The position numbers and the translations under genes were made by a program. DNA of 26,654 nt, taken from the IMG/VR virus record IMGVR_UViG_3300045999_005497, positions 1 through 26,654 of that record. One strand, given 5' to 3'. Shown here in pieces: positions 10,432-24,758 of this stretch. The DNA is from a virus. The notes beneath the pieces were generated by a model. It did not search any database, was not told the DNA's origin, and saw only the letters and a list, made by a program, of their open reading frames with translations. Positions within the stretch are counted from its first letter, which is position 1, and each line of letters starts with the position of its first letter.

Positions 10432-11631
10432 TCAGTTGGCATCAAACTTTACACTTGTATCATCAAATCTACTGTCTTCATTATCAAAGACATAGATTGT
10501 TGTTGGTAATCTAGGATCAACTCGCTCAACAGAAGAAACACCCAATCCAATGTTCACATTTTCTGAACTATTTCTTGTCTGTACTCTTTTATAACTCCAC
10601 ACTCTCAACTGTTGTCCATGTCTCCTTTCTTTCAATGAGTTTACTTCACTAAACCAAGTGCTAATCCCAACTCTTAATGCTTGAATTTCAGATTCTAAAG
10701 TATTAATACTATTAATGATTGTTGTTGCATTAAGACCTGAAGCAATAACAAGTGTACCAGAAGCAGACATGAGTAATGGGGGAAATCCAGTTGATTCTAG
10801 TTTTAATGTTACTGGATTAAAATTAACACCAAGACCATTAAAAGTTCCTGTAGTAATACCAGTCAATCCAGAAACTATTGAGGCATATTCTGGTTCTGCT
10901 GTAAATGTTTGAGATGGATGATCATATGCTCCAGGAATTCCTACAGTACCAATTCCTGGTCCAGTAACTTTAACATATTGACCTATTACATTACTACTAC
11001 TATTCCAAGATTCACTATCCCAATTACCAGAATCGCTAGTTACATAATAAGTAAGAACACCATCATTATATTTTGAATTTTTGAAGAAAGAATCTACCTT
11101 CCCTTGTCCAGCATTCTGAGTTGTTAATACTGGAAATTTATAATTCTCTAAAGCATTATCATTAGGTGCAACTCTATTTTCTAAATTAGGATATCTTAAA
11201 ATTCTTATGTTATCAGGTCTAACATTCCCATAAGCAATTTGAGGAGTTCCTGGATTTGCTGTTCCACCAAAACTAAACCCACCAATTACCGCTGGATATT
11301 CATTTTTATCAGATATGACATCAGAATCTAAATTTGCTTTATCAGCTTCAACTGCACATAATGGAGATCTTATTCCAGGAATATAAACAGACATCACAGA
11401 ATTACAAATAGAAACTATCTGAGATTTTTTAGCATTTATTTGATCCAATATAGGTTGCACGTTTTCAAGTATCTCAAGATCCAATTCTTTTGCTGGTAAT
11501 TGATACTGACTAATAGAAGTTCCAGCTATTCCTAATGGAACAGCAAATGTTGAATTACTGTCTGTTCTATTTGATGATTCGGAAGTTAATCCAGAAACAA
11601 CTGTCTGCCCAACGGTTGATAATGTTGTCAT
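10432..11631 (-). CDS. Virion structural protein, unknown detail
   Basis: 399 residues, starting MTTLSTVGQTVVSGLTSES. The first part contains a helix (ELDLEILENVQPILDQINAKKSQIVSICNSVMS). The middle is Gly/Asn/Tyr-rich beta sequence, and a second helix lies near residues 310-330 (INTLESEIQALRVGISTWFSEVNSLKERR). The C-terminus ends in acidic and aromatic residues. There is no signal peptide or enzyme motif. It sits in the late block between the duplicated-domain proteins and a fibre-like protein, so it is probably a baseplate-periphery or fibre-attachment component. I recognise it only as a cyanophage-type structural ORF. Confidence 0.65.
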   Translation of the reverse strand: MTTLSTVGQTVVSGLTSESSNRTDSNSTFAVPLGIAGTSISQYQLPAKELDLEILENVQPILDQINAKKSQIVSICNSVMSVYIPGIRSPLCAVEADKANLDSDVISDKNEYPAVIGGFSFGGTANPGTPQIAYGNVRPDNIRILRYPNLENRVAPNDNALENYKFPVLTTQNAGQGKVDSFFKNSKYNDGVLTYYVTSDSGNWDSESWNSSSNVIGQYVKVTGPGIGTVGIPGAYDHPSQTFTAEPEYASIVSGLTGITTGTFNGLGVNFNPVTLKLESTGFPPLLMSASGTLVIASGLNATTIINSINTLESEIQALRVGISTWFSEVNSLKERRHGQQLRVWSYKRVQTRNSSENVNIGLGVSSVERVDPRLPTTIYVFDNEDSRFDDTSVKFDAN

Positions 11632-11651: not shown

Positions 11652-12464
11652 TTATTTATTTTTCCAATTACCATTAATAGTATATTCACTATTATCTCCT
11701 GGATAATCTGCTGGTGTCAACCCTATGTACTCTGGAATATTTTTTGGAGTATCCTTTCTTTCTGCAGTAATCGTATAGTAACAATTTACAGATCCACCAG
11801 AATTATTTTTAACAATAATTCTAGATCCCCATTCTATTTTTTCAACAAACAATTCTTGATGATACCCAATAGGTGTTAATGTTACTCCTATTGTTTCTTG
11901 ATCTATTAAATTACTCCAGTATTCTGGTAACGTAATAATATTTTCATTTTCCAATTTACCCCTAATATAAACTTCCGCAGCAGGACCTTCTAAACAAACA
12001 TATCGAAGGCGATGATCATCTTTTAATGGGTGTGGTATGTCAAAAGATTTTTTAGATTGTGCGATTGCTCTAGTAGTCGTCATATAAGACGCCGCATTAC
12101 CAACGCCAGACAAATTCAATACACCATTACAAGCAACATTAGAATTACATACAATATTATCATTTGCTACGGTAGTTCCATTAATAATAATGTTTCCGTT
12201 AAAAATTGTATTTTGAATATTCGCAAGTAAATTAGGTAAATCTCCACTATTCTTTTCAAATGTAACTAACGCTGTTGATACTCCATATAGGTGGAAGTAT
12301 GCATAGTCTGCTTGATTGTTGAAAAATAAAACTCCAATATCATTTAATTTAAAAGAAGTGTCTATTGGAATATCACTCCACCATTTAGAATCACTATCAT
12401 CAAAATTATAATTTTTTGCTGGTCCAGTGAAGGTTCCGTACTGTCTAAAATTAAATCCTGGCAT
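11652..12464 (-). CDS. Virion protein with CLEGP domain (copy 1)
   Basis: 270 residues. The N-terminus MPGFNFRQYGTFTGPAKNYNF is followed by a beta-rich linker of repeated NG..IINGTT-like strands. A C-terminal domain at about 145-245 contains FDIPHPLK, YVCLEGPAAEVYIRGKL, ITLPEYWSNLID, ITVTL-like strands and CYYTITAERKD. This domain recurs in the next gene upstream (12466-13149) with clear similarity, so the two arose by duplication. It is found in phage tail/fibre proteins as I recall; no catalytic motif is seen. The two genes are separated by one base. Likely a baseplate or fibre part. Confidence 0.7.
   Translation of the reverse strand: MPGFNFRQYGTFTGPAKNYNFDDSDSKWWSDIPIDTSFKLNDIGVLFFNNQADYAYFHLYGVSTALVTFEKNSGDLPNLLANIQNTIFNGNIIINGTTVANDNIVCNSNVACNGVLNLSGVGNAASYMTTTRAIAQSKKSFDIPHPLKDDHRLRYVCLEGPAAEVYIRGKLENENIITLPEYWSNLIDQETIGVTLTPIGYHQELFVEKIEWGSRIIVKNNSGGSVNCYYTITAERKDTPKNIPEYIGLTPADYPGDNSEYTINGNWKNK
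11653..11659 (-). promoter_or_regulatory. T4-type late promoter overlapping a stop codon
   Basis: ATAAATA on the minus strand, overlapping the TAA of the 270-residue gene and 22 bases upstream of the ATG at 11631. Confidence 0.5.
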
Positions 12465-12465
12465 C

Positions 12466-13149
12466 TCAAATCTCCGTTTGCAATTTATTTACATCTTTTC
12501 TTTCTGCAAATACATGGTAGAAACAATCAATAGGTAATTCACCAAACTCAGTCATATAATTACCTATAATTATTTTATTATCTTTAATTTTAGCAACAAA
12601 TAAAGATTGTTCAAAACTAATAGCAGTCAAAGAAACTGTAATTGTAGTTTCATCTACTAAGTTAGTCCAATATTCTGGTAATTCAATTGTATTATTATTT
12701 CTTAATCGTCCTCTAACATATACTGAATGTTCTGGTCCCTCAAGACAACCATAAACTAACTTTTTATTTTCTTTTGTTGGATGATCTATTACAAAATTTT
12801 TCGTATTAGCCATCAAAACATTAGTATAAATTATATCAGATTTAATTAACTTAACAGATAATAATGTATCAACTTTTAGAAATGATTTTATTCTGGCATA
12901 TGTTTGAACGAATAATGAAAGAAATGGTATCGTTCCAACTTTTGTAACATCTGGATTTTTAGTTGGACCACACATAACCGTGGCCATTTCTTGAGGTGCT
13001 GGTTTAAATAAACTAGGATCACCAGTTACAGTGGGTCCTTCTAAGTATCCAGATCCTCTTACTTCGGTTGGACCAACACCTAAAACATTTGTTGGATTTC
13101 CTTTACCGAGAAATAATCTTTTCCCTATTTCTATATCTGGTAATTTCAT
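12466..13149 (-). CDS. Virion protein with CLEGP domain (copy 2)
   Basis: 227 residues. N-terminal Gly/Pro-rich stretch (GVGPTEVRGSGYLEGPTVTG, then PAPQEMATVMCGPTKNPD), a short hydrophobic helix (PFLSLFVQTYARIKSFL), and then a domain matching the neighbour copy: FVIDHPTK, YGCLEGPEHSVYVRGRL, IELPEYWTNLVD, ITVSLTAI, FYHVFAERKD. It is four bases downstream of the beta-helix spike gene and one base upstream of copy 1, so it is part of the baseplate transcript. The proline-rich head could bind the spike complex, but this is inference. Confidence 0.7.
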   Translation of the reverse strand: MKLPDIEIGKRLFLGKGNPTNVLGVGPTEVRGSGYLEGPTVTGDPSLFKPAPQEMATVMCGPTKNPDVTKVGTIPFLSLFVQTYARIKSFLKVDTLLSVKLIKSDIIYTNVLMANTKNFVIDHPTKENKKLVYGCLEGPEHSVYVRGRLRNNNTIELPEYWTNLVDETTITVSLTAISFEQSLFVAKIKDNKIIIGNYMTEFGELPIDCFYHVFAERKDVNKLQTEI

Positions 13150-16289: not shown

Positions 16290-17467
16290 TTATCTTTTGG
16301 CGTAGTTCCAGGAAAATCACAATAGATTAAGTCACCAGCTCTAATTGAAATATCTCCAGCAATAGTTATTGTTAAAACTAAAGTAAATAATTGATTATAT
16401 CTCATTGCAGACTGTGCAATGACATTACCAGCATCTAAATTCTGAACAAATACACCTTTCAACTGTTGTTCACTGGTAGATCCATCTGGTAGTTGCCCAA
16501 CATCCAATCTTCTTATCGATTTTCTAGAAGGTCCACTAAAACCAGGTGCCAATTTTGGCATGGTCTTTCCACCTAATTGAGGTTGTTTTTGAGAATCAAC
16601 TAAGGCATATCCAAATTTATCCGTATATGGATCATACCCCTCAAGTTTAGTTCCATACCCACCAACAACCATTCTTTTTTGAACATCAATTGTTTTATCT
16701 GCATAATATTCTAATATTTTTCCAGTGTATCCAGAAGGAAGACCAGTATTCATATTATAAATGTATGATTTATATCCCCTCTTAGAATCTAATAATTTAT
16801 CTATAGATTTAAAATTATATCCGTCATAATTTTCAAAAAACAAATATCCAGCAACCTTTCCTTTTGCACCAGGAACACCATCAGGAATACAAAATCTTGC
16901 CATTTCTGTACATAATCTCATTGGTTTTTTTGCATCACCAATAAAATTATATTTGTTGACTGTGGTATCAGTAAAAACTGGTTTAGAACTCTTAAGATAT
17001 TCTTTTACTATTTTTTTGATAGAACTAGATATTTCACCATCATACCTTTTATAAACAAGACTTGATTCTTGTTCATTAATTAAAAACTCTTTAGTAACTA
17101 AATCTATAGTAAAAGCAGTTTTTTGAGTGTGAGAAAATATATTTCTTATTTTAGAAATATAAAGAGACTTATCTCCAGTAAATCTAATTTTATTTTCAGT
17201 CGGTTGATTATCAATAAATTCTAATTCTACTCTTTCAAATCCAGATAATTGCAACAGTTGCAATACATTAGACGCATTGGATCCCTCACCAGAATTTCCA
17301 GTATCAACAATTGTAGCAGTAACTCTTATAGTATTTTCCAACACACTTTCATAATAAGATAAATTTACAACTCCACCTTTTACATCGGCAGAATTACCAT
17401 TTAGATTAGAATATATTTTGAATATTGAAATATTTGCTGGATTAGCAGCGATGTTTGGTGTGCTCAT
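16265..17467 (-). CDS. gp27-like baseplate hub protein
   Basis: 400 residues, about the size of T4 gp27 (391). Begins MSTPNIAANPANISIFKIYS. Features typical of hub/gp27/gpD-type proteins: beta domains (LQLSGFERVELEFID), SSSIKKIVKEYLKS, and GYLFFENYDGYNFKSIDKLL; then LVLTITIAGDISIRAGDLIYCDFPG close to the C-terminus. Position between the tape-measure-like gene (ATGA overlap) and gp5-like gene supports the hub role: it would form the trimeric cylinder holding the spike. The zero-frame product ends abruptly after the last beta segment (PKDNPQPDKGI), and a coding frame in -1 phase continues from there. Homology to gp27 is inferred from size, pattern and order. Confidence 0.7.
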   Translation of the reverse strand: MSTPNIAANPANISIFKIYSNLNGNSADVKGGVVNLSYYESVLENTIRVTATIVDTGNSGEGSNASNVLQLLQLSGFERVELEFIDNQPTENKIRFTGDKSLYISKIRNIFSHTQKTAFTIDLVTKEFLINEQESSLVYKRYDGEISSSIKKIVKEYLKSSKPVFTDTTVNKYNFIGDAKKPMRLCTEMARFCIPDGVPGAKGKVAGYLFFENYDGYNFKSIDKLLDSKRGYKSYIYNMNTGLPSGYTGKILEYYADKTIDVQKRMVVGGYGTKLEGYDPYTDKFGYALVDSQKQPQLGGKTMPKLAPGFSGPSRKSIRRLDVGQLPDGSTSEQQLKGVFVQNLDAGNVIAQSAMRYNQLFTLVLTITIAGDISIRAGDLIYCDFPGTTPKDNPQPDKGI

Positions 17468-20400
17468 GCTAGTAAAGTTTCGATGTTTAATGCATCAGAT
17501 GTGAAGGTACTACCAAATCTTGGTGGTCCTGGTGGAGATTGTTTAGATACAGTATTATTTACAATTTTTTCTACGGGAATTAATATCAAAGTGGGATTGT
17601 TATTATTTTCATAAGATGCATAAGAACTTAACACCTCAGATATTTGTTTTTTATTTTTAGCAGCATTTAATTTTACTAACATTCCAGGATATTCTTTATT
17701 CATTGTTCCAGTTGTATCTGGATCTAATACCATTTCTGGTTTTTTAGTTTCACCAATTAAAGCATGAGTTGGTTTTGTTACTAATCCACCATGTTTATAA
17801 GCAACGTGAACGTGATCTCTATGCCCAGCATCATTATTTCCATGCAATAATTCCACAGGTCTAACACCTTTTAGTTTATTAAATTCAGATATTACTCTTA
17901 GAATTGGACCTTGTTCATGTGTATATGCACCAATGTCAATAGCACGATTAGAATAATGGAATGATCCATCAGCATGTCTACCAAGAACTCCACCATGTTC
18001 TGGGTGTTCAGTAACTGCTTGAAATTGTGCTGGACTTCTTAACTTTTGTTTAATAAATCTTCCAAGTTCCCCTGCAATTTTAGTTCCAGCAGATCCATAC
18101 CCTGATCCTAATTGAATATTAGGTCCAGATCCACCACCTTTCCCAGATGAAGTTGCTCCAAAATTAGGAACAGAGGCAACTTTATTATCTCTATAATTGT
18201 TATACCATCCAAAATAATTATCACCACCTTTTCTTTGAACACCTCCAGATACACTATACCCTCTAAAATCAGTTCTTCCTTGTATAAATTCTCTAGCATT
18301 TTTTTGCAAAGTTGGATCTAAAAGTGCCGCTGCAACTTTTTTCATTGCGTCTGGAGATTGCCCAGAAGCAGCAGATGCTGATTGTGCATCAGTAATATTC
18401 CTCCACTCTGGATTTGGAACTCCAATTGTTCCAGGTTTAGGGAACTTCCATGTTGGTTCATATTGCATTTGCCCAAGTATTAAATCTTTAATAGATTTTC
18501 CAGAGTATGCCCCAGATCCAAGTCTATTATAAATTGATTGAGCAACATCCGCCCATGCTTGAGGATCACCATCTTCTCTAGAAGCAATAGCAACTAATGT
18601 CCAAAAATCAGAAGTCCCACCCTGAACATCAACTTCACCATCTGGTGTGGTTTGACCACCTGGAACATTCCCACTAATTGGTTTCTTGTTTGATTCTTCC
18701 CTTAAAGCAGTAAGAATTGATGCTGCTTGTTTCTCTACTAAATTAGAAAATGTATTTGCTAAAATTTCACCAACCTTTGCCCCAAAATTTGGTCCTCTAG
18801 ATGGCATATTGGGTGGAACAATACCACCAGTAGCCATAGCAAGAATAGATTTTGCAGTATCCTGAGTTGTCACTTCCATATTAGTATTAACTAATTCTTG
18901 TATAAAAGAACCAAATGCCTTTCCATACTTAGAATAAAATGCCTTGGTAGGTTTTTGACCCATAGCAAGATCAACACCAACAGCCATAGTCTGACTTAAT
19001 AATGTAGATTGACCGCTTTTTAATATACTAGATGTAGTTTTTAAAGATCTAAGAGGACTAACTTGATCTAATGTATTGGGATTTTCCTTAGAAAATACTT
19101 TACTTATTACCTTTTCACCACCAATATTTTTACCAGGATCTGTTTTTGGTGCTTGTAATTTTGGTTGTTTAGGTGTTGTTCTTTTTACTTTTAGAGTTCT
19201 ACCAATACTTCCACCTACAGCAGATCCACCCCTTGTAGGAGTAATTATTCCACCTTGAGCTTTACCTTTTACTTTTCTATCTTTTGCTTGTTCTTTTTTA
19301 CCTTTAAATAGGATATCATATAATTTACCACCAGCCCAATCTCCAGCAAATCCACCAATAATAGCACCAATTGGACCACCAAACCCAGTACCAATGGTTC
19401 CAAGAAGAGCAGCACCAATAGCAGAGAATGCTGCCCTACCTAATGGTTCTCCCATTGCAAGAGACAAACCAAAATCAATAAGTCCTCCTATTATAGGAAG
19501 TCTTTTTAAAAGAGGTCTAGCAAATTTTAAAACAGTCTTTGCACCAGACTTTCCAACTAACTTAACAGCACCAGCTCTTGCAGCATTACTTAATCTAGAT
19601 CTACCATATTTTCCACCAAGATCCTTTACACTTTCTTTACTAAATTTATCAATCGCAGCGTCACGCCCATATTTTCTGGCGTACCTTCGCATCAATTGAT
19701 TTTCATTAGCATCATATTGTGCATTTGACCAATCAGTTTTTCTAAAAACTTCTCTTTGATATGCACTACCACTTCTATTAAAAGAATAATTTCCTTTTTT
19801 ATCTGTTGGTATTGGTTTATTTGTACGAGGATCTCTAAGTTGTTTCCTCTTTCCGTCTGGATGTTTATCTTTAACTTTATTAGCGAGGGCTGCTACACCC
19901 AAAGCAGCAATTATAGTATAATTAAGAACATCATTTAGATTTTTAGAAAATTCATCAAATACTTTTTCCGCACCAGAACCACCAAGTTGTTTTACAAATC
20001 CCTTAGTAGAATCATAAGCTTTATATCCCCAATCAATAAAATTTATTAATCCCTTCAATAAATTTTTACCCATCCAACCAATAAAATTTATTGCTGGAGT
20101 TATTTTACTTGCTATTGATATTAAAGTTGGTAGATAATCTATTGCTCTTACTGCAAGATAACCAAGAAATACATTTAAAATAAATTTCTTAATCCAATCA
20201 ACTATTCCAAGTTTTGGTTTTGGTATATTTTTTAATATCTTAAATCCATAATCTTTCTTCTTTTCAAACTTTTCTTCTTTCTCAAGTCTTCTTTGATTTT
20301 CTTTTTGTATTCTATCTTTTGTTGCTTGATCTTTTTGTAATTGTATTGTTTTTGATAGTATTTTTTCTATTGAAAGAACTGATTCTTTTATAGAAAGTAT

Positions 20401-20580
20401 ATCATCTCTAAGTCCAGACTTACCAAATTTTTGTTTCTGTTCATCTTTACGTTCAGATAATTTTACAATATTTTTATACTGTATATTTTTTACTGGTACT
20501 AAAAATTTATCGGCACTTATTTTCTGTTGGGTGTCGCTATTTTTAGATTGAGGAAGAAGTTTTTTAGAATTTATATTCAT
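17464..20580 (-). CDS. Tape-measure-like protein with cell-wall enzyme domains
   Basis: 1038 residues. Residues 50-110: charged coiled coil (LSIKESVLSIEKILSK, QKENQRRLEKEEKFEKKK). 125-175: hydrophobic segments (FILNVFLGYLAVRAIDYLP). 360-412: glycine-rich membrane-like stretch (LPIIGGLIDFGLSLAM, IGAIIGGFAGDWAGG). 655-770: SleB/Hydrolase_2-like domain (LVAIASREDGDPQAWADVAQ, IYNRL) typical of peptidoglycan lytic enzymes. 850-930: M15-like or related zinc peptidase pattern (HADGSFHYSNRAIDIG, then GHRDHVHVAY). C-terminus: THALIGETKKPEMVLDPDT, common at tape-measure ends. It is coupled to the hub gene by ATGA and has one base between it and a shorter relative upstream. Role: tail-length or tail-lumen protein that helps open the cell wall; inferred. 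Confidence 0.7.
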   Translation of the reverse strand: MNINSKKLLPQSKNSDTQQKISADKFLVPVKNIQYKNIVKLSERKDEQKQKFGKSGLRDDILSIKESVLSIEKILSKTIQLQKDQATKDRIQKENQRRLEKEEKFEKKKDYGFKILKNIPKPKLGIVDWIKKFILNVFLGYLAVRAIDYLPTLISIASKITPAINFIGWMGKNLLKGLINFIDWGYKAYDSTKGFVKQLGGSGAEKVFDEFSKNLNDVLNYTIIAALGVAALANKVKDKHPDGKRKQLRDPRTNKPIPTDKKGNYSFNRSGSAYQREVFRKTDWSNAQYDANENQLMRRYARKYGRDAAIDKFSKESVKDLGGKYGRSRLSNAARAGAVKLVGKSGAKTVLKFARPLLKRLPIIGGLIDFGLSLAMGEPLGRAAFSAIGAALLGTIGTGFGGPIGAIIGGFAGDWAGGKLYDILFKGKKEQAKDRKVKGKAQGGIITPTRGGSAVGGSIGRTLKVKRTTPKQPKLQAPKTDPGKNIGGEKVISKVFSKENPNTLDQVSPLRSLKTTSSILKSGQSTLLSQTMAVGVDLAMGQKPTKAFYSKYGKAFGSFIQELVNTNMEVTTQDTAKSILAMATGGIVPPNMPSRGPNFGAKVGEILANTFSNLVEKQAASILTALREESNKKPISGNVPGGQTTPDGEVDVQGGTSDFWTLVAIASREDGDPQAWADVAQSIYNRLGSGAYSGKSIKDLILGQMQYEPTWKFPKPGTIGVPNPEWRNITDAQSASAASGQSPDAMKKVAAALLDPTLQKNAREFIQGRTDFRGYSVSGGVQRKGGDNYFGWYNNYRDNKVASVPNFGATSSGKGGGSGPNIQLGSGYGSAGTKIAGELGRFIKQKLRSPAQFQAVTEHPEHGGVLGRHADGSFHYSNRAIDIGAYTHEQGPILRVISEFNKLKGVRPVELLHGNNDAGHRDHVHVAYKHGGLVTKPTHALIGETKKPEMVLDPDTTGTMNKEYPGMLVKLNAAKNKKQISEVLSSYASYENNNNPTLILIPVEKIVNNTVSKQSPPGPPRFGSTFTSDALNIETLLA

Positions 20581-20581
20581 A

Positions 20582-23032
20582 TTATTCTACTCCTATTATT
20601 CCGTAAATCTGAATGTTAATCTTTCTACTGGCAGTATTTTGAAATGCAGAGAACGGTGGAATGTCTCTACCACCACTTTTACTTTGTCCAGAAAGATTTC
20701 CACCAGTACTCTTTTTTAAGGGTGGTAAACTAACAATATTGGGAGTTCTATTAACTGATGGTGAGGGTGGTATATAAACATTTTGTTTTGCTGGTATAAA
20801 ATTATGCTTTTTACTTTCCTCTAAGGAGATATTTGTCTGCTGATCTCCAAAGTTTAAACCATTTATAGTGCTACCAAAAGAATTCTGAATTACATTTTTA
20901 AATAATGGCATAAAAGATGGTGAAAATGTATTTGTGATGTCAAGTTTTGGATTTACAACCGATTGAATTTCATCATACCCAGATTGTCCAGGTTTCACTT
21001 TCTTAGCCAACTGTGGGAAATTTTTCGCCCACTGTTGCATAGGAGTTAATTTTTTGGGAGTTATTGTTTTATTCAAATACTCTTGATTAAAAATATTAGT
21101 TTTACCTTTATCAATATTTGTATTACCAAAATTCATAAAAGATTCTTTCATAGTAAAAGGAGACAATTTAGTAGAATTACTTTGTGGTTTCCTTTTACCG
21201 TAAGATGGTAATATTTCTTTTTTATTTTCAACCTTACCACCAACAACTCCACCATTAGCAGCTAACTGAACATTATTATACATCTTTGGTATATTTGCTC
21301 TTGAACCACCAAACTTAGAATTTAGATTTAAAAAGAAATCTTTTCCAAGAGCATCTACAGTTGGTTTATTCATAACAATTTCACCAGGTTGTGCTGCAAT
21401 CAATTGAGTATCTTTTCCAGCACCAGTTACCTGAACACCAGTATCAGTATTAATTGCCCCACCACCAGAAAATCCTATGTCTCTAACATTTATAGGTTGA
21501 GTATAGAAATCCTGAGGTTTTTGTCTTGTTATTAATCCACCATTAGTATAAGATTTCGTTTTTCCAGTTTCTAAGGAATAAATTTGTTCATCTATTTCAG
21601 AACCTTTTCCTTGCATTTTTTCAAACAAGTTTAAATTCTGCTTTTGTTGTTTTAAACTTTCAATTTTTTCTTTATTTGTCCCTGGTTGTGCAGCAGTTTT
21701 CCTTTCCTGTTCATTTACAGTCTGAGGAAATAGCATTGGGATTGTTGCACCAGCAGTAAATAATCCAACACCCATTCCTATAGGACTTTTTAAAAACTTT
21801 AATAGTTGCGGGAGAACTTTCTTAGTTAATTTAAACCCAAATTTTATTAGGGATGCTGTTATTTTTACTGCAAATCTACCTATACCATTTCCAAATAACA
21901 AATATGCACCCAACAATGCGGGCCACCAATCTTTAAGAAATCTAAAAATATTTTTTACTTTTGCAAAATTTTCAGGATTTCCAAGCCAGTCCATCATCTT
22001 TATAAAAAATCTACCCAATAAAACATTAGTAATAAAGTTAATGATTTTATCAAGAATACTTTGAAAGGGAGCTACTATTTTTTGTGCTACATTTTTTAAA
22101 GTTGATTTAACACCCTCTAGTTTATCTTCTCTATCTGATCTTCTTTTATTTTCTCTCTGCAGTCTTTGAGTATCATAATTTTTTTGAAGTATTTTATTCT
22201 GATTAGTTAATAGAGCAGAAATATTTTCCAGACTAGATCTAATTATTTGAATATCTTTTTTGAAGTCAGTAGTTTCTGTAGAAGGTTTCTCTTCAGTTCC
22301 TTTTACATCTGGAACAGATACTTTCCCAGCAAGAAAAAATTGATCTTTTGAAATTCTTATGGGTCCAGTTGCTTTTATATTATCTGCATTTAACTTTCTA
22401 GATTTTACTTTAAATCTACCAACTTTACCCTTTACTCTCTTATATTCATTAGTTAATAACTCTACTTCTTCTGTTGGAATGCTAGTTGATGTCATTCTAG
22501 CAGACATCATTTTCTCTTTTAAGAGAGTTAAATATGTACCATAATCAATATCAAATACATCTTGAAGTCCAAGGAGTTTTAATATTCTCTCATCAATTTC
22601 TTCGTCAACTAAGTCCTCTTCTTTTTTACCTTCATATAAAGTTAAAGAACCTGGAGGATTATTATCAGCAGATGCCGATCCTCCTGGTTCTTTAGGTGGT
22701 TTTTCTCTTTCTATTTTTTTCTTTTTACCTTTATCTTTTACATAATATTCCCACAAGAATAAAATATATTGATTATATAAATCAAAATCTTTTGTATTTT
22801 GTGGATTTTGAACAGCATCAATTGGTGATGGATAATCTTTATCCGATGCAGTATATGATTTAATAAAAGTATCTACAACTCTTTCCGCCTTTACACCAAA
22901 AGTATTCTCGATTAAATACTTGCTTCTCTCTATTCGATCAGCAAGTATTTTCTTGTACGAATTGGATCTACTTGTTTTAATTGTAGATACTGGCCAAAAC
23001 TTATCGATAAACTTTGGTTTACTTAACGCCAT
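20582..23032 (-). CDS. Tape-measure-like tail protein (shorter relative)
   Basis: 816 residues. The central part parallels the next gene: a coiled coil (LENISALLTNQNKILQKNYD, LQRENKRRSDREDKLEG; about 255-310) followed by hydrophobic segments (INFITNVLLGRFFIKMMDWLG; PALLGAYLLFGNGIG; GMGVGLFTAGATIPMLF near 417-432). Around residue 520-570 is INTDTGVQVTGAGKDTQLIAAQPGEIVMNKPTV, a motif shared by many phage tape-measure tails. No enzyme domain is seen. The N-terminal 250 residues (MALSKPKFIDKFWPVSTIKTS) are unique. It starts inside the end of the gp51-like frame (14-base overlap). Probably acts with the 1038-residue protein in the tail lumen; which of the two sets tail length cannot be told. Confidence 0.7.
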   Translation of the reverse strand: MALSKPKFIDKFWPVSTIKTSRSNSYKKILADRIERSKYLIENTFGVKAERVVDTFIKSYTASDKDYPSPIDAVQNPQNTKDFDLYNQYILFLWEYYVKDKGKKKKIEREKPPKEPGGSASADNNPPGSLTLYEGKKEEDLVDEEIDERILKLLGLQDVFDIDYGTYLTLLKEKMMSARMTSTSIPTEEVELLTNEYKRVKGKVGRFKVKSRKLNADNIKATGPIRISKDQFFLAGKVSVPDVKGTEEKPSTETTDFKKDIQIIRSSLENISALLTNQNKILQKNYDTQRLQRENKRRSDREDKLEGVKSTLKNVAQKIVAPFQSILDKIINFITNVLLGRFFIKMMDWLGNPENFAKVKNIFRFLKDWWPALLGAYLLFGNGIGRFAVKITASLIKFGFKLTKKVLPQLLKFLKSPIGMGVGLFTAGATIPMLFPQTVNEQERKTAAQPGTNKEKIESLKQQKQNLNLFEKMQGKGSEIDEQIYSLETGKTKSYTNGGLITRQKPQDFYTQPINVRDIGFSGGGAINTDTGVQVTGAGKDTQLIAAQPGEIVMNKPTVDALGKDFFLNLNSKFGGSRANIPKMYNNVQLAANGGVVGGKVENKKEILPSYGKRKPQSNSTKLSPFTMKESFMNFGNTNIDKGKTNIFNQEYLNKTITPKKLTPMQQWAKNFPQLAKKVKPGQSGYDEIQSVVNPKLDITNTFSPSFMPLFKNVIQNSFGSTINGLNFGDQQTNISLEESKKHNFIPAKQNVYIPPSPSVNRTPNIVSLPPLKKSTGGNLSGQSKSGGRDIPPFSAFQNTASRKINIQIYGIIGVE

Positions 23033-23201
23033 TTTGCTGTTGCTGTTTAAGTTTTTCTTCTTCTAAATGAGCTTGGAGTAAAGCAACATAAATGTCTCTT
23101 TCCCACGGCAACATACTTTCAATCTCAGTTAATGAGTATTTATGATACTGCATCAAGGCAAAGTTTAACTTAAAATAATTTTCAAGGTCCATATGGACCA
23201 A
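23019..23201 (-). CDS. gp51: gp51-like baseplate hub assembly protein / frameshift extension of gp26
   Basis: Pattern FKLNFALMQYHKYSLTEIES, MLPWERDIYVALL and EEEKLKQQQQ matches the short ORF that follows gp26 in cyanophages and is annotated as gp51-like hub assembly catalyst; T4 has gene order 26-51-27. The frame has only a TTG (23201) and an internal ATG (23192, MDLENYF), neither with a Shine-Dalgarno, but it stays open upstream in exactly the -1 frame of the gp26 end, through a U_UUU_UUC heptamer. So it is probably made at least partly as a gp26 fusion of about 301 residues. The end overlaps the 816-residue gene by 14 bases. Confidence 0.7.
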   Translation of the reverse strand: MVHMDLENYFKLNFALMQYHKYSLTEIESMLPWERDIYVALLQAHLEEEKLKQQQQNGVK

Positions 23202-23216
23202 GGCTATACGAAAAAA
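23186..23216 (-). promoter_or_regulatory. Putative -1 ribosomal frameshift signal (gp26/gp51)
   Basis: On the minus strand TTTTTTC (23210-23216) lies in the gp26 frame as T_TTT_TTC, two codons before the gp26 TAG (23204-23206). Both tRNA-Phe positions can re-pair after a -1 slip. Ten bases further is the palindrome GGTCCATATGGACC (23186-23199), which can form a GC-rich 5-bp stem with ATAT loop as stimulator. The -1 frame leads directly into the gp51-like ORF. Confidence 0.65.
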
Positions 23217-23923
23217 CTTGATAACCCTTCCAGAATTACTGTACTTTCAACTTTAGTGCTTGGATTTTTGACTTTGATTTCATGCGAAAGTTTTGGCATA
23301 GTTTCAAAGAATTTTTCAACCTTCTTGAATTGAGAAGAATTCATTTGCTCAAGAAAATCAACTACTTCTTTTTTAGTAACATCAGAAGAAGTCCAAATTT
23401 CTTCTTCAGTATAAATTTTCTCAACACATGAAGCAACTAAGTCAAAAGATTGTTCCATATTATTATCATTAGTAAAATCAAAATTACTCTTAATAAATTG
23501 ATCCAATGATGGATATTTCATTTCAATAGCAAGAGCATCATCAATCTTAATTTGTTTACTGTGGTCAGGATTTTTTTGAACCTGAATATCATCAATGTTA
23601 ATTTTTACTTGAACGGTAGTTTGTTCATCATCTGGGCAAATAATATTGACATCAATTTCTTCACCGACAGATTTACCACGAATATTTAAAAACAAATATT
23701 CAATATCAAATGTTGGAAGTGTTTCAACTTTTATATTTTTAGTTAGAATACAATTTTTAATTACATTTTTTATTGCATTAGTTATCTGCTTAGAATCTTC
23801 TGTCTCTAAAGCAATGACTAAAAGTTTTTCCTCTCTTACAAGAAAAGGTCTATATTCAATTGATTGTCCAGTAGATGGCAATTCCAACTCATATGTTGGT
23901 GTAGATATTTTTGGTAAAGGCAT
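23204..23923 (-). CDS. gp26: Baseplate hub protein gp26
   Basis: 239 residues (T4 gp26 is 208). The N-terminus matches the T4 gp26 family as I know it: YELELPSTGQSIEYRPFLVR, EEKLLVIALE, then a helix (ITNAIKNVIKNCIL) and IDVNIICPDD. The C-terminal part is helical (DVTKKEVVDFLEQMNSSQFK, KVEKFFETMPKLSHEI), as in tail assembly chaperones. It ends in LEGLSSFFV with the slippery heptamer inside the Phe-Phe codons. Role in T4: subunit/assembly factor of the central baseplate hub. It is transcribed from a late promoter 29 bases upstream that overlaps the stop of the tube-like gene. Confidence 0.85.
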   Translation of the reverse strand: MPLPKISTPTYELELPSTGQSIEYRPFLVREEKLLVIALETEDSKQITNAIKNVIKNCILTKNIKVETLPTFDIEYLFLNIRGKSVGEEIDVNIICPDDEQTTVQVKINIDDIQVQKNPDHSKQIKIDDALAIEMKYPSLDQFIKSNFDFTNDNNMEQSFDLVASCVEKIYTEEEIWTSSDVTKKEVVDFLEQMNSSQFKKVEKFFETMPKLSHEIKVKNPSTKVESTVILEGLSSFFV

Positions 23924-23951: not shown

Positions 23952-23958
23952 TATTTAT
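23952..23958 (-). promoter_or_regulatory. T4-type late promoter of gp26
   Basis: ATAAATA on the minus strand (context CATAATAAATAAAAC). It shares bases with the TAA of the tube-like gene and lies 29 bases before the gp26 ATG. Confidence 0.55.
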
Positions 23959-24758
23959 TATGCAAAAGCGGATGATCCTAATACACCTTGGTCAACATTT
24001 CTACCATTAAAGAAATTTGCACTATTAGTAGCATCCTGAGAACTTCTTCCAAAATTATTATAATACTCGTTAGTCAATATGTTTTGAGTAATGAATGGTG
24101 TATTTGACGTTATTGGTTGTGTAGTAACTGGTGCTGGTTGTTCTATAGTACTTTGTTCTGGTACATCACTAAAACGTCCAACATAATATCTACTATAAAC
24201 AAATGATACTGTAACTTTTAATAAATTAGAAGTATCATAAGATACTGGTATAGAATTTATACTTACTGGAAATGCTTTTATAAAAGTATATTTGAGTTGA
24301 GATCCATAATCTCTTTCATATTTAATTATCTCTATCTTATCAGTACTATAATTATCTGGCCAAGTTGGTCTGGAGGTAAATGTTCTTTTTTCAACTCCAC
24401 CAGCATAACTTTCACCAGCAATATATCTCATCCAAGATTCAAAAAATCTTATAGGAACATAATTATGATTCACATAAAATGTAAAATCTGCCCTATCATC
24501 ATATAATCTTCGATAAGCATGTTTTTCATTAACCCCAACATAATCATTCACGATATCTAATGTTGCAAAAGATGATCCAGGTAAAGATGCTTCACTACAA
24601 GAAACTTCAAAAAAATCTACATCCAAAGATACACCAGAATTATTAGTTATAAATTGAGAAGCTGCATCAGGAACAGCAAATTTCACAGAGTAATGAGAAG
24701 TAAGTGCTGGTCTTAAAATGTTTGCTTTTAATTGTGCTACTGTCTTTGGAGCAACCAT
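23958..24758 (-). CDS. Tail-tube-family protein (gp54/gp19-like)
   Basis: 266 residues. The core (residues about 45-205) reads like the T4 tube fold: EVSCSEASLPGSSFATLDIV, AYRRLYDDRADFTFYVNHNY, RFFESWMRYIAGE, KYERDYGSQLKYTFIKAFPV, INSIPVSYDTSNLLKVTVSF. The major tube protein gp19 is usually encoded next to the sheath gene, elsewhere. Here, opposite gp4 and gp48 and before gp26, a tube initiator (gp54-type) or hub-proximal tube protein is more likely. The C-terminal 55 residues are low-complexity Thr/Pro/Asn, probably disordered. It begins 41 bases from the divergent gp4 gene. Family fairly sure, exact ortholog not. Confidence 0.75.
   Translation of the reverse strand: MVAPKTVAQLKANILRPALTSHYSVKFAVPDAASQFITNNSGVSLDVDFFEVSCSEASLPGSSFATLDIVNDYVGVNEKHAYRRLYDDRADFTFYVNHNYVPIRFFESWMRYIAGESYAGGVEKRTFTSRPTWPDNYSTDKIEIIKYERDYGSQLKYTFIKAFPVSINSIPVSYDTSNLLKVTVSFVYSRYYVGRFSDVPEQSTIEQPAPVTTQPITSNTPFITQNILTNEYYNNFGRSSQDATNSANFFNGRNVDQGVLGSSAFA

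Follow-up and report, generated by a model that had tools for sequence, protein, structure and literature searches.

Lambda G/GT has the slippery heptamer GGGAAAG, and Escherichia coli dnaX has A AAA AAG with a frameshift product that is shorter. For T4-like phages, the tail assembly chaperone genes were reportedly identified by Vladimirov, Gautam and Davidson in 2022 (Virology 566:9-15), with 26/51 as the G/GT equivalent; the abstract of that paper is said to name genes 26 and 51 for T4 and to state that several T4-like groups have kept frameshifting. In lambda, the −1 slip takes place towards the end of the gene for the short chaperone, ahead of the tape-measure gene, and gives a longer, C-terminally extended protein (PMC5009743). 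The same source, a 2016 review, describes G-T frameshifting as conserved in long-tailed phages "except T4" (PMC5009743). In dnaX, an upstream Shine-Dalgarno-like element, a slippery heptamer and a downstream stem are combined (PMC5600365). One paper citing the 2022 work describes the TAC-N genes of T4-like phages as carrying poly-T −1 signals (PMC12846349), and another describes some T4-like phages as having a separate fused long gene instead (PMC10885494). The TAC locus of the Vandenendeviridae/Andersonviridae, as in phage Adele, is a myovirus TAC gene with a conserved poly-T −1 site that is commonly annotated as two genes (PMC12846349).

The locus described here lies on the minus strand of the window, that is, the whole stretch of DNA that was analysed, which comes from a T4-like cyanophage (26,654 nt; IMG/VR record IMGVR_UViG_3300045999_005497). 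Its sequence makes it very probable that a programmed −1 frameshift yields a short and a long tail assembly chaperone from one gene. The genes are those of the T4-like chaperones of Vladimirov et al., namely 26 and 51. The locus would share with lambda G/GT a slip late in the short gene and a longer product but belongs to another protein family and has another slippery heptamer. It resembles dnaX in its three elements, the Shine-Dalgarno-like one being a possible stimulator, but has T TTT TTY and a longer rather than a shorter predicted product. It differs from the Adele locus in having the full T TTT TTY in place of a GTTTTT motif and in phage family (PMC12846349). The features of the junction, from upstream to downstream, are as follows.

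23958 to 24758, minus strand: tail-tube protein gene, directly upstream (PF23849 1.6e-12, phrog_45 9.9e-32)
23204 to 23923, minus strand: gp26-like ORF of 239 aa, proposed short tail assembly chaperone (TAC-N)
23224 to 23230, minus strand: G-rich GGAAGGG, a Shine-Dalgarno-like stretch ahead of the heptamer and a possible stimulator
23210 to 23216, minus strand: slippery heptamer T TTT TTC, in frame with gp26, read from the sequence
23204 to 23206, minus strand: zero-frame stop TAG, separated from the heptamer by a single codon (GTA)
23200 to 23209, minus strand: 10-nt spacer between heptamer and stem, from the sequence
23186 to 23199, minus strand: downstream hairpin GGUCC-AUAU-GGACC, from folding and comparative evidence
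23019 to 23215, minus strand: −1 frame encoding the gp51-like C-terminal domain, the extension of the proposed long chaperone (TAC-NC)
20582 to 23032, minus strand: 816-aa ORF, a tape-measure candidate, directly downstream and overlapping the end of the −1 frame

The gp26-like ORF ends in GGG TTA TCA AGT TTT TTC GTA TAG, and the in-frame T_TTT_TTC that the original prediction placed near this TAG was confirmed at 23216-23210 of the minus strand. The 10-base spacer and the perfect 14-base palindrome of that prediction were also present (23209-23200 and 23199-23186, respectively); the palindrome, GGTCCATATGGACC, can form a 5-bp stem closed by an AUAU loop. The gp51-like frame, said to be open in the −1 phase through the site, indeed stays open from a point 40 nt ahead of the gp26 stop as far as its own stop codon at 23019, and the deduced fusion, anticipated at about 301 residues, is exactly 301 aa in length and reads ...EGLSSFFRIALVHMDLENYF... 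at the junction. The arrangement has the canonical elements of −1 frameshifting: a heptamer of the form X XXY YYZ near a stop, an open −1 frame and a suitably spaced stem.

IMG/VR contigs and GenBank phages provided 212 loci with a gp26 relative, which reduced to 152 distinct junctions. An in-phase T TTT TTY with an open −1 extension was found in 145 of the 152 (one of the 145 ends at the contig end). The set spans Kyanoviridae and Eurybiavirus together with phages, T4-like or more distant, whose hosts are Stenotrophomonas, Aeromonas, Vibrio, Cronobacter, Acidovorax, Acinetobacter and Agrobacterium; a scan with a Vibrio gp26 query found no relatives. From the heptamer-carrying loci we picked 85 representatives of less than 85% nucleotide identity. 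T TTT TTY stands at the junction in all of them (TTTTTTC in 76 and TTTTTTT in 9), and because they were preselected for the heptamer, the fair denominator for its presence is 152. All representatives have an open, homologous −1 frame. Among the 16,320 other in-frame sites of the 85 divergent gp26 genes, T TTT TTY did not occur once; this count and the conservation across lineages ruled out a chance heptamer. Heptamer, −1 phase and downstream stem, which the original prediction had proposed to look for in relatives, were all conserved (145/152 junctions and a covarying stem).

Several junctions depart from this pattern. In Vibrio phages YC (L104) and K469 (L101), there is no heptamer, and the gp26 stop overlaps the gp51-like start as TAATG; these phages may use reinitiation in place of slipping. 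In S-SCSM1 (L085, NC_070962.1, ∼2208-2245), the heptamer is kept and an insertion of ∼10 nt after the TAG places the gp51-like frame at +1, which closes the −1 route; the +1 frame may be due to an error in sequencing or a recent break, or may mark a different route. Locus L002 has an indel upstream.

Strong evidence for the predicted hairpin came from comparison rather than from the fold of the single window. The window hairpin folded with about −8 to −9 kcal/mol (centroid −8.3 kcal/mol), giving z −1.57 against dinucleotide shuffles of the hairpin alone and z −3.0 against synonymous versions. When the 36 nt past the heptamer were compared with synonymous versions encoding the same −1-frame peptide, the mean z was about −2.7, with p < 0.05 in 58 of the 85 representatives; the signal faded over about 30 nt, and none was seen upstream of the heptamer. 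Within the clade of the window, both sides had changed in four of the five stem pairs. Double-change cells numbered 25 in the stem versus 6.5 expected, a value reached in 0 of 500 shuffles and compared with 0 to 3 in slid controls, although kinship inflates such counts. Different stems occupy the same place in P-SSM2 and ACG-2014f (AGTATGGCTC/GAGTCATACT) and in the S-RSM4 group (ACTCTTCCA/TGGAAGGGT), and the predicted stem is weak or absent in C48C1, S13 and the L198-L214 group. An Rfam scan of the junction gave no match.

Upstream of the heptamer, GGAAGGG had an anti-Shine-Dalgarno energy of −6.0 kcal/mol in the window, and across the representatives the G-rich stretch was the deepest such minimum within the last 90 nt (−5.50 versus −4.62 in synonymous versions). 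The rare Gly codon GGG was used in 31 of 84 cases at the site and in 33 of 405 elsewhere (p 2e-10, uncorrected for kinship). The signal was singly significant in 13 of the 85 sequences, and a conserved Gly partly holds the site. The stretch, the heptamer and the stem together suggest a dnaX-like arrangement, with moderate evidence for the Shine-Dalgarno-like part.

Profile searches related both reading frames to T4 proteins. The zero-frame product matched PF12322 T4_baseplate (1.6e-74) and phrog_150 (5e-78). The −1-frame product matched phrog_634 ("baseplate hub assembly catalyst," 2.1e-27) and also the tail of phrog_150 (positions 241-280 of 282), which indicates that the phrog_150 family includes natural fusions. 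T4 gp51 is such a fusion, matching phrog_150 over 13-280 and PF12322 over gp51 residues 1-201, and T4 gp26 matched PF12322 without the additional C-domain. A profile of the deduced −1 fusions aligned with the T4 gp51 family end to end over 240 columns (E 2.3e-14; E 2.9e-9 for the gp26 part alone and E 3.8e-6 for the extension alone), without a gap across the junction, where FFRIALVHMDLENYF meets VFKLLVNPDEIFTFY. Because T4 gp51 comprises a gp26-like domain and the C-domain in one ORF, T4 has the long form as a separate gene, and T4 gp26, which lacks the slippery heptamer, corresponds to the short form. The description of 26 and 51 as separate genes in T4-like phages is right for T4, but T4 gp51 itself carries the gp26-like domain in addition to the C-domain. 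Separate genes 26 and 51 occur in T4, fGh-Ecl04 and vB_EQ1 (Tevenvirinae), whose gp26 encodes Phe-Phe by the non-slippery TTC TTT or TTC TTC. In the window record, which is a fragment, the C-domain is reached via the −1 frame only; one gp26-like match was obtained there, and no second complete gp26-like domain was found joined to the C-domain in the same frame.

Taken across the phages compared, it seems fairly likely that the 26/51 junction is a dnaX-like cassette (Shine-Dalgarno-like stretch, T TTT TTY and stem) that is old among T4-like phages, with a near-constant heptamer and unrelated stems swapped between cyanophage lineages, that the slippery codons are absent in Tevenvirinae, which have the separate long gene, and that the shortened gp51 of cyanophages and marine vibriophages is an annotation artefact.

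Production of the gp51-like protein as a separate short polypeptide, from its own ATG or TTG or by reinitiation after the gp26 stop, is very improbable. GenBank records do annotate two genes, an ATG is present at 23192 in the window, and a TAATG overlap occurs in Vibrio phages YC, K469, 6E35.1a and PG216. The two candidate starts in the window are both weak (anti-Shine-Dalgarno +0.5 for TTG 23201 and −2.1 kcal/mol for ATG 23192), and no start codon overlaps the TAG. The gp26 and 816-aa starts are no better (+0.4 and +1.2 kcal/mol), so the missing Shine-Dalgarno sequence is weak evidence in this genome. In 47 of the 85 lineages, the opening 45 nt of the −1 frame contain no ATG, and the annotated gp51 starts vary in place among phages, some lying deep within the conserved domain; a separate gp51 start was rejected because no ATG is conserved. 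The expectation that this ORF would lack a good start of its own was upheld by the lack of a conserved ATG, with the absent Shine-Dalgarno sequence only supportive. A separate gp51 also leaves the invariant heptamer, the phase, the stem and the T4 gp51 fusion unexplained.

Still less probable is transcriptional slippage, by which a base would be added or dropped on the T run and the fusion translated from such mRNAs. Long T runs are prone to slip, and relatives of the C48C1 type carry 8 T; the run is only 6 T long in the window and in the 76 TTTTTTC lineages, which is short for transcriptional slippage. This process requires neither codon phasing nor a hairpin at fixed distance, yet both are conserved. 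In C48C1 (L092), L192 and L193, the slippery site lies inside the 8-T run, a length at which transcriptional slippage could contribute.

Least probable of all is that the heptamer is held merely by a need for Phe-Phe in gp26. The pair is almost invariant across the family, but all 85 representatives have TTT as the first Phe codon and a T at the end of the codon before it, although one Phe codon in three is TTC and only 41% of codons have T in the last position. The −1 frame, moreover, stays open and homologous in every case, and amino-acid constraint alone is rejected because Tevenvirinae gp26 keeps Phe-Phe in other codons.

The programmed −1 frameshift reading is based on the sequence signals, their conservation and the homology of the fusion to T4 gp51; the slipping itself, its rate and the chaperone role are inferred. 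Most ribosomes would terminate at the TAG, yielding the short form of 239 aa (gp26, TAC-N). A smaller share would be held up by the downstream hairpin, probably with help from the upstream Shine-Dalgarno-like stretch, and the two Phe-tRNAs would slip from TTT-TTC to TTT-TTT. The slipped ribosomes would continue through the gp51-like frame to give a long form of 301 aa (TAC-NC). If lambda gpG/gpGT is a guide, the part common to both forms would bind the tape-measure protein and the C-domain would bring tail-tube subunits; these roles, with the short form on the tape measure and the long form recruiting tube, are transferred from lambda G/GT (PMC5009743).

If so, what is annotated as two near-core genes in the abundant T4-like phages of the ocean would be one gene with two products, and the same protein pair would be made by recoding in some lineages and from a second gene in T4. 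Since no slippery codons are left in T4 gp26, the change-over between recoding and a second gene is directly testable. In the GenBank records examined, the two ORFs are never joined. A 2010 survey listed cyanophage gp51 as a version without the first ∼200 residues (PMC3037559), and these would be missing because cyanophage gp51 is the tail end of the frameshifted chaperone. With frameshifting of T4-like chaperones published in 2022, the kind of event is already known, and the present case is a very well supported one. The Shine-Dalgarno-like element, the hairpin covariation, the lineage-swapped hairpins and the absence of the heptamer from Tevenvirinae gp26 are possibly new details.

The gp26-like gene sits between the tail-tube gene and the long 816-aa ORF, where a tail assembly chaperone would usually be expected if that ORF is a tape-measure gene. 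The 816-aa ORF matched phrog_35029 (6e-45), a family whose function is not known; its tape-measure matches were weak, and no homology to T4 gp29 was found. The proposal that gp26/gp51 is the equivalent of G/GT, placed before tape-measure-like genes, stood in that the deduced fusion consists of the short form plus a C-domain with the tail-tube gene upstream, but it was not a new inference. An AlphaFold model of gp26 built from the window and contig rows (pLDDT 85) matched the HK97 tail assembly chaperone 2ob9 with the highest probability among PDB entries, though weakly (prob 0.77, E 1.1, 58 columns), and the gp26 profile gave only chance hits against PDB sequences.

Other ORFs of the minus strand deserve mention. 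The 399-aa ORF at 10432-11631 had no PHROG or Pfam match at E 0.01. The 1038-aa ORF (17464-20580) and the 816-aa ORF (20582-23032) are distantly related (phmmer 4.6e-11), which gives the impression of a tape-measure-like gene duplicated in tandem. The ORFs at 11652-12464 and 12466-13149 both matched phrog_17490 and phrog_28536, an apparent tandem duplication.
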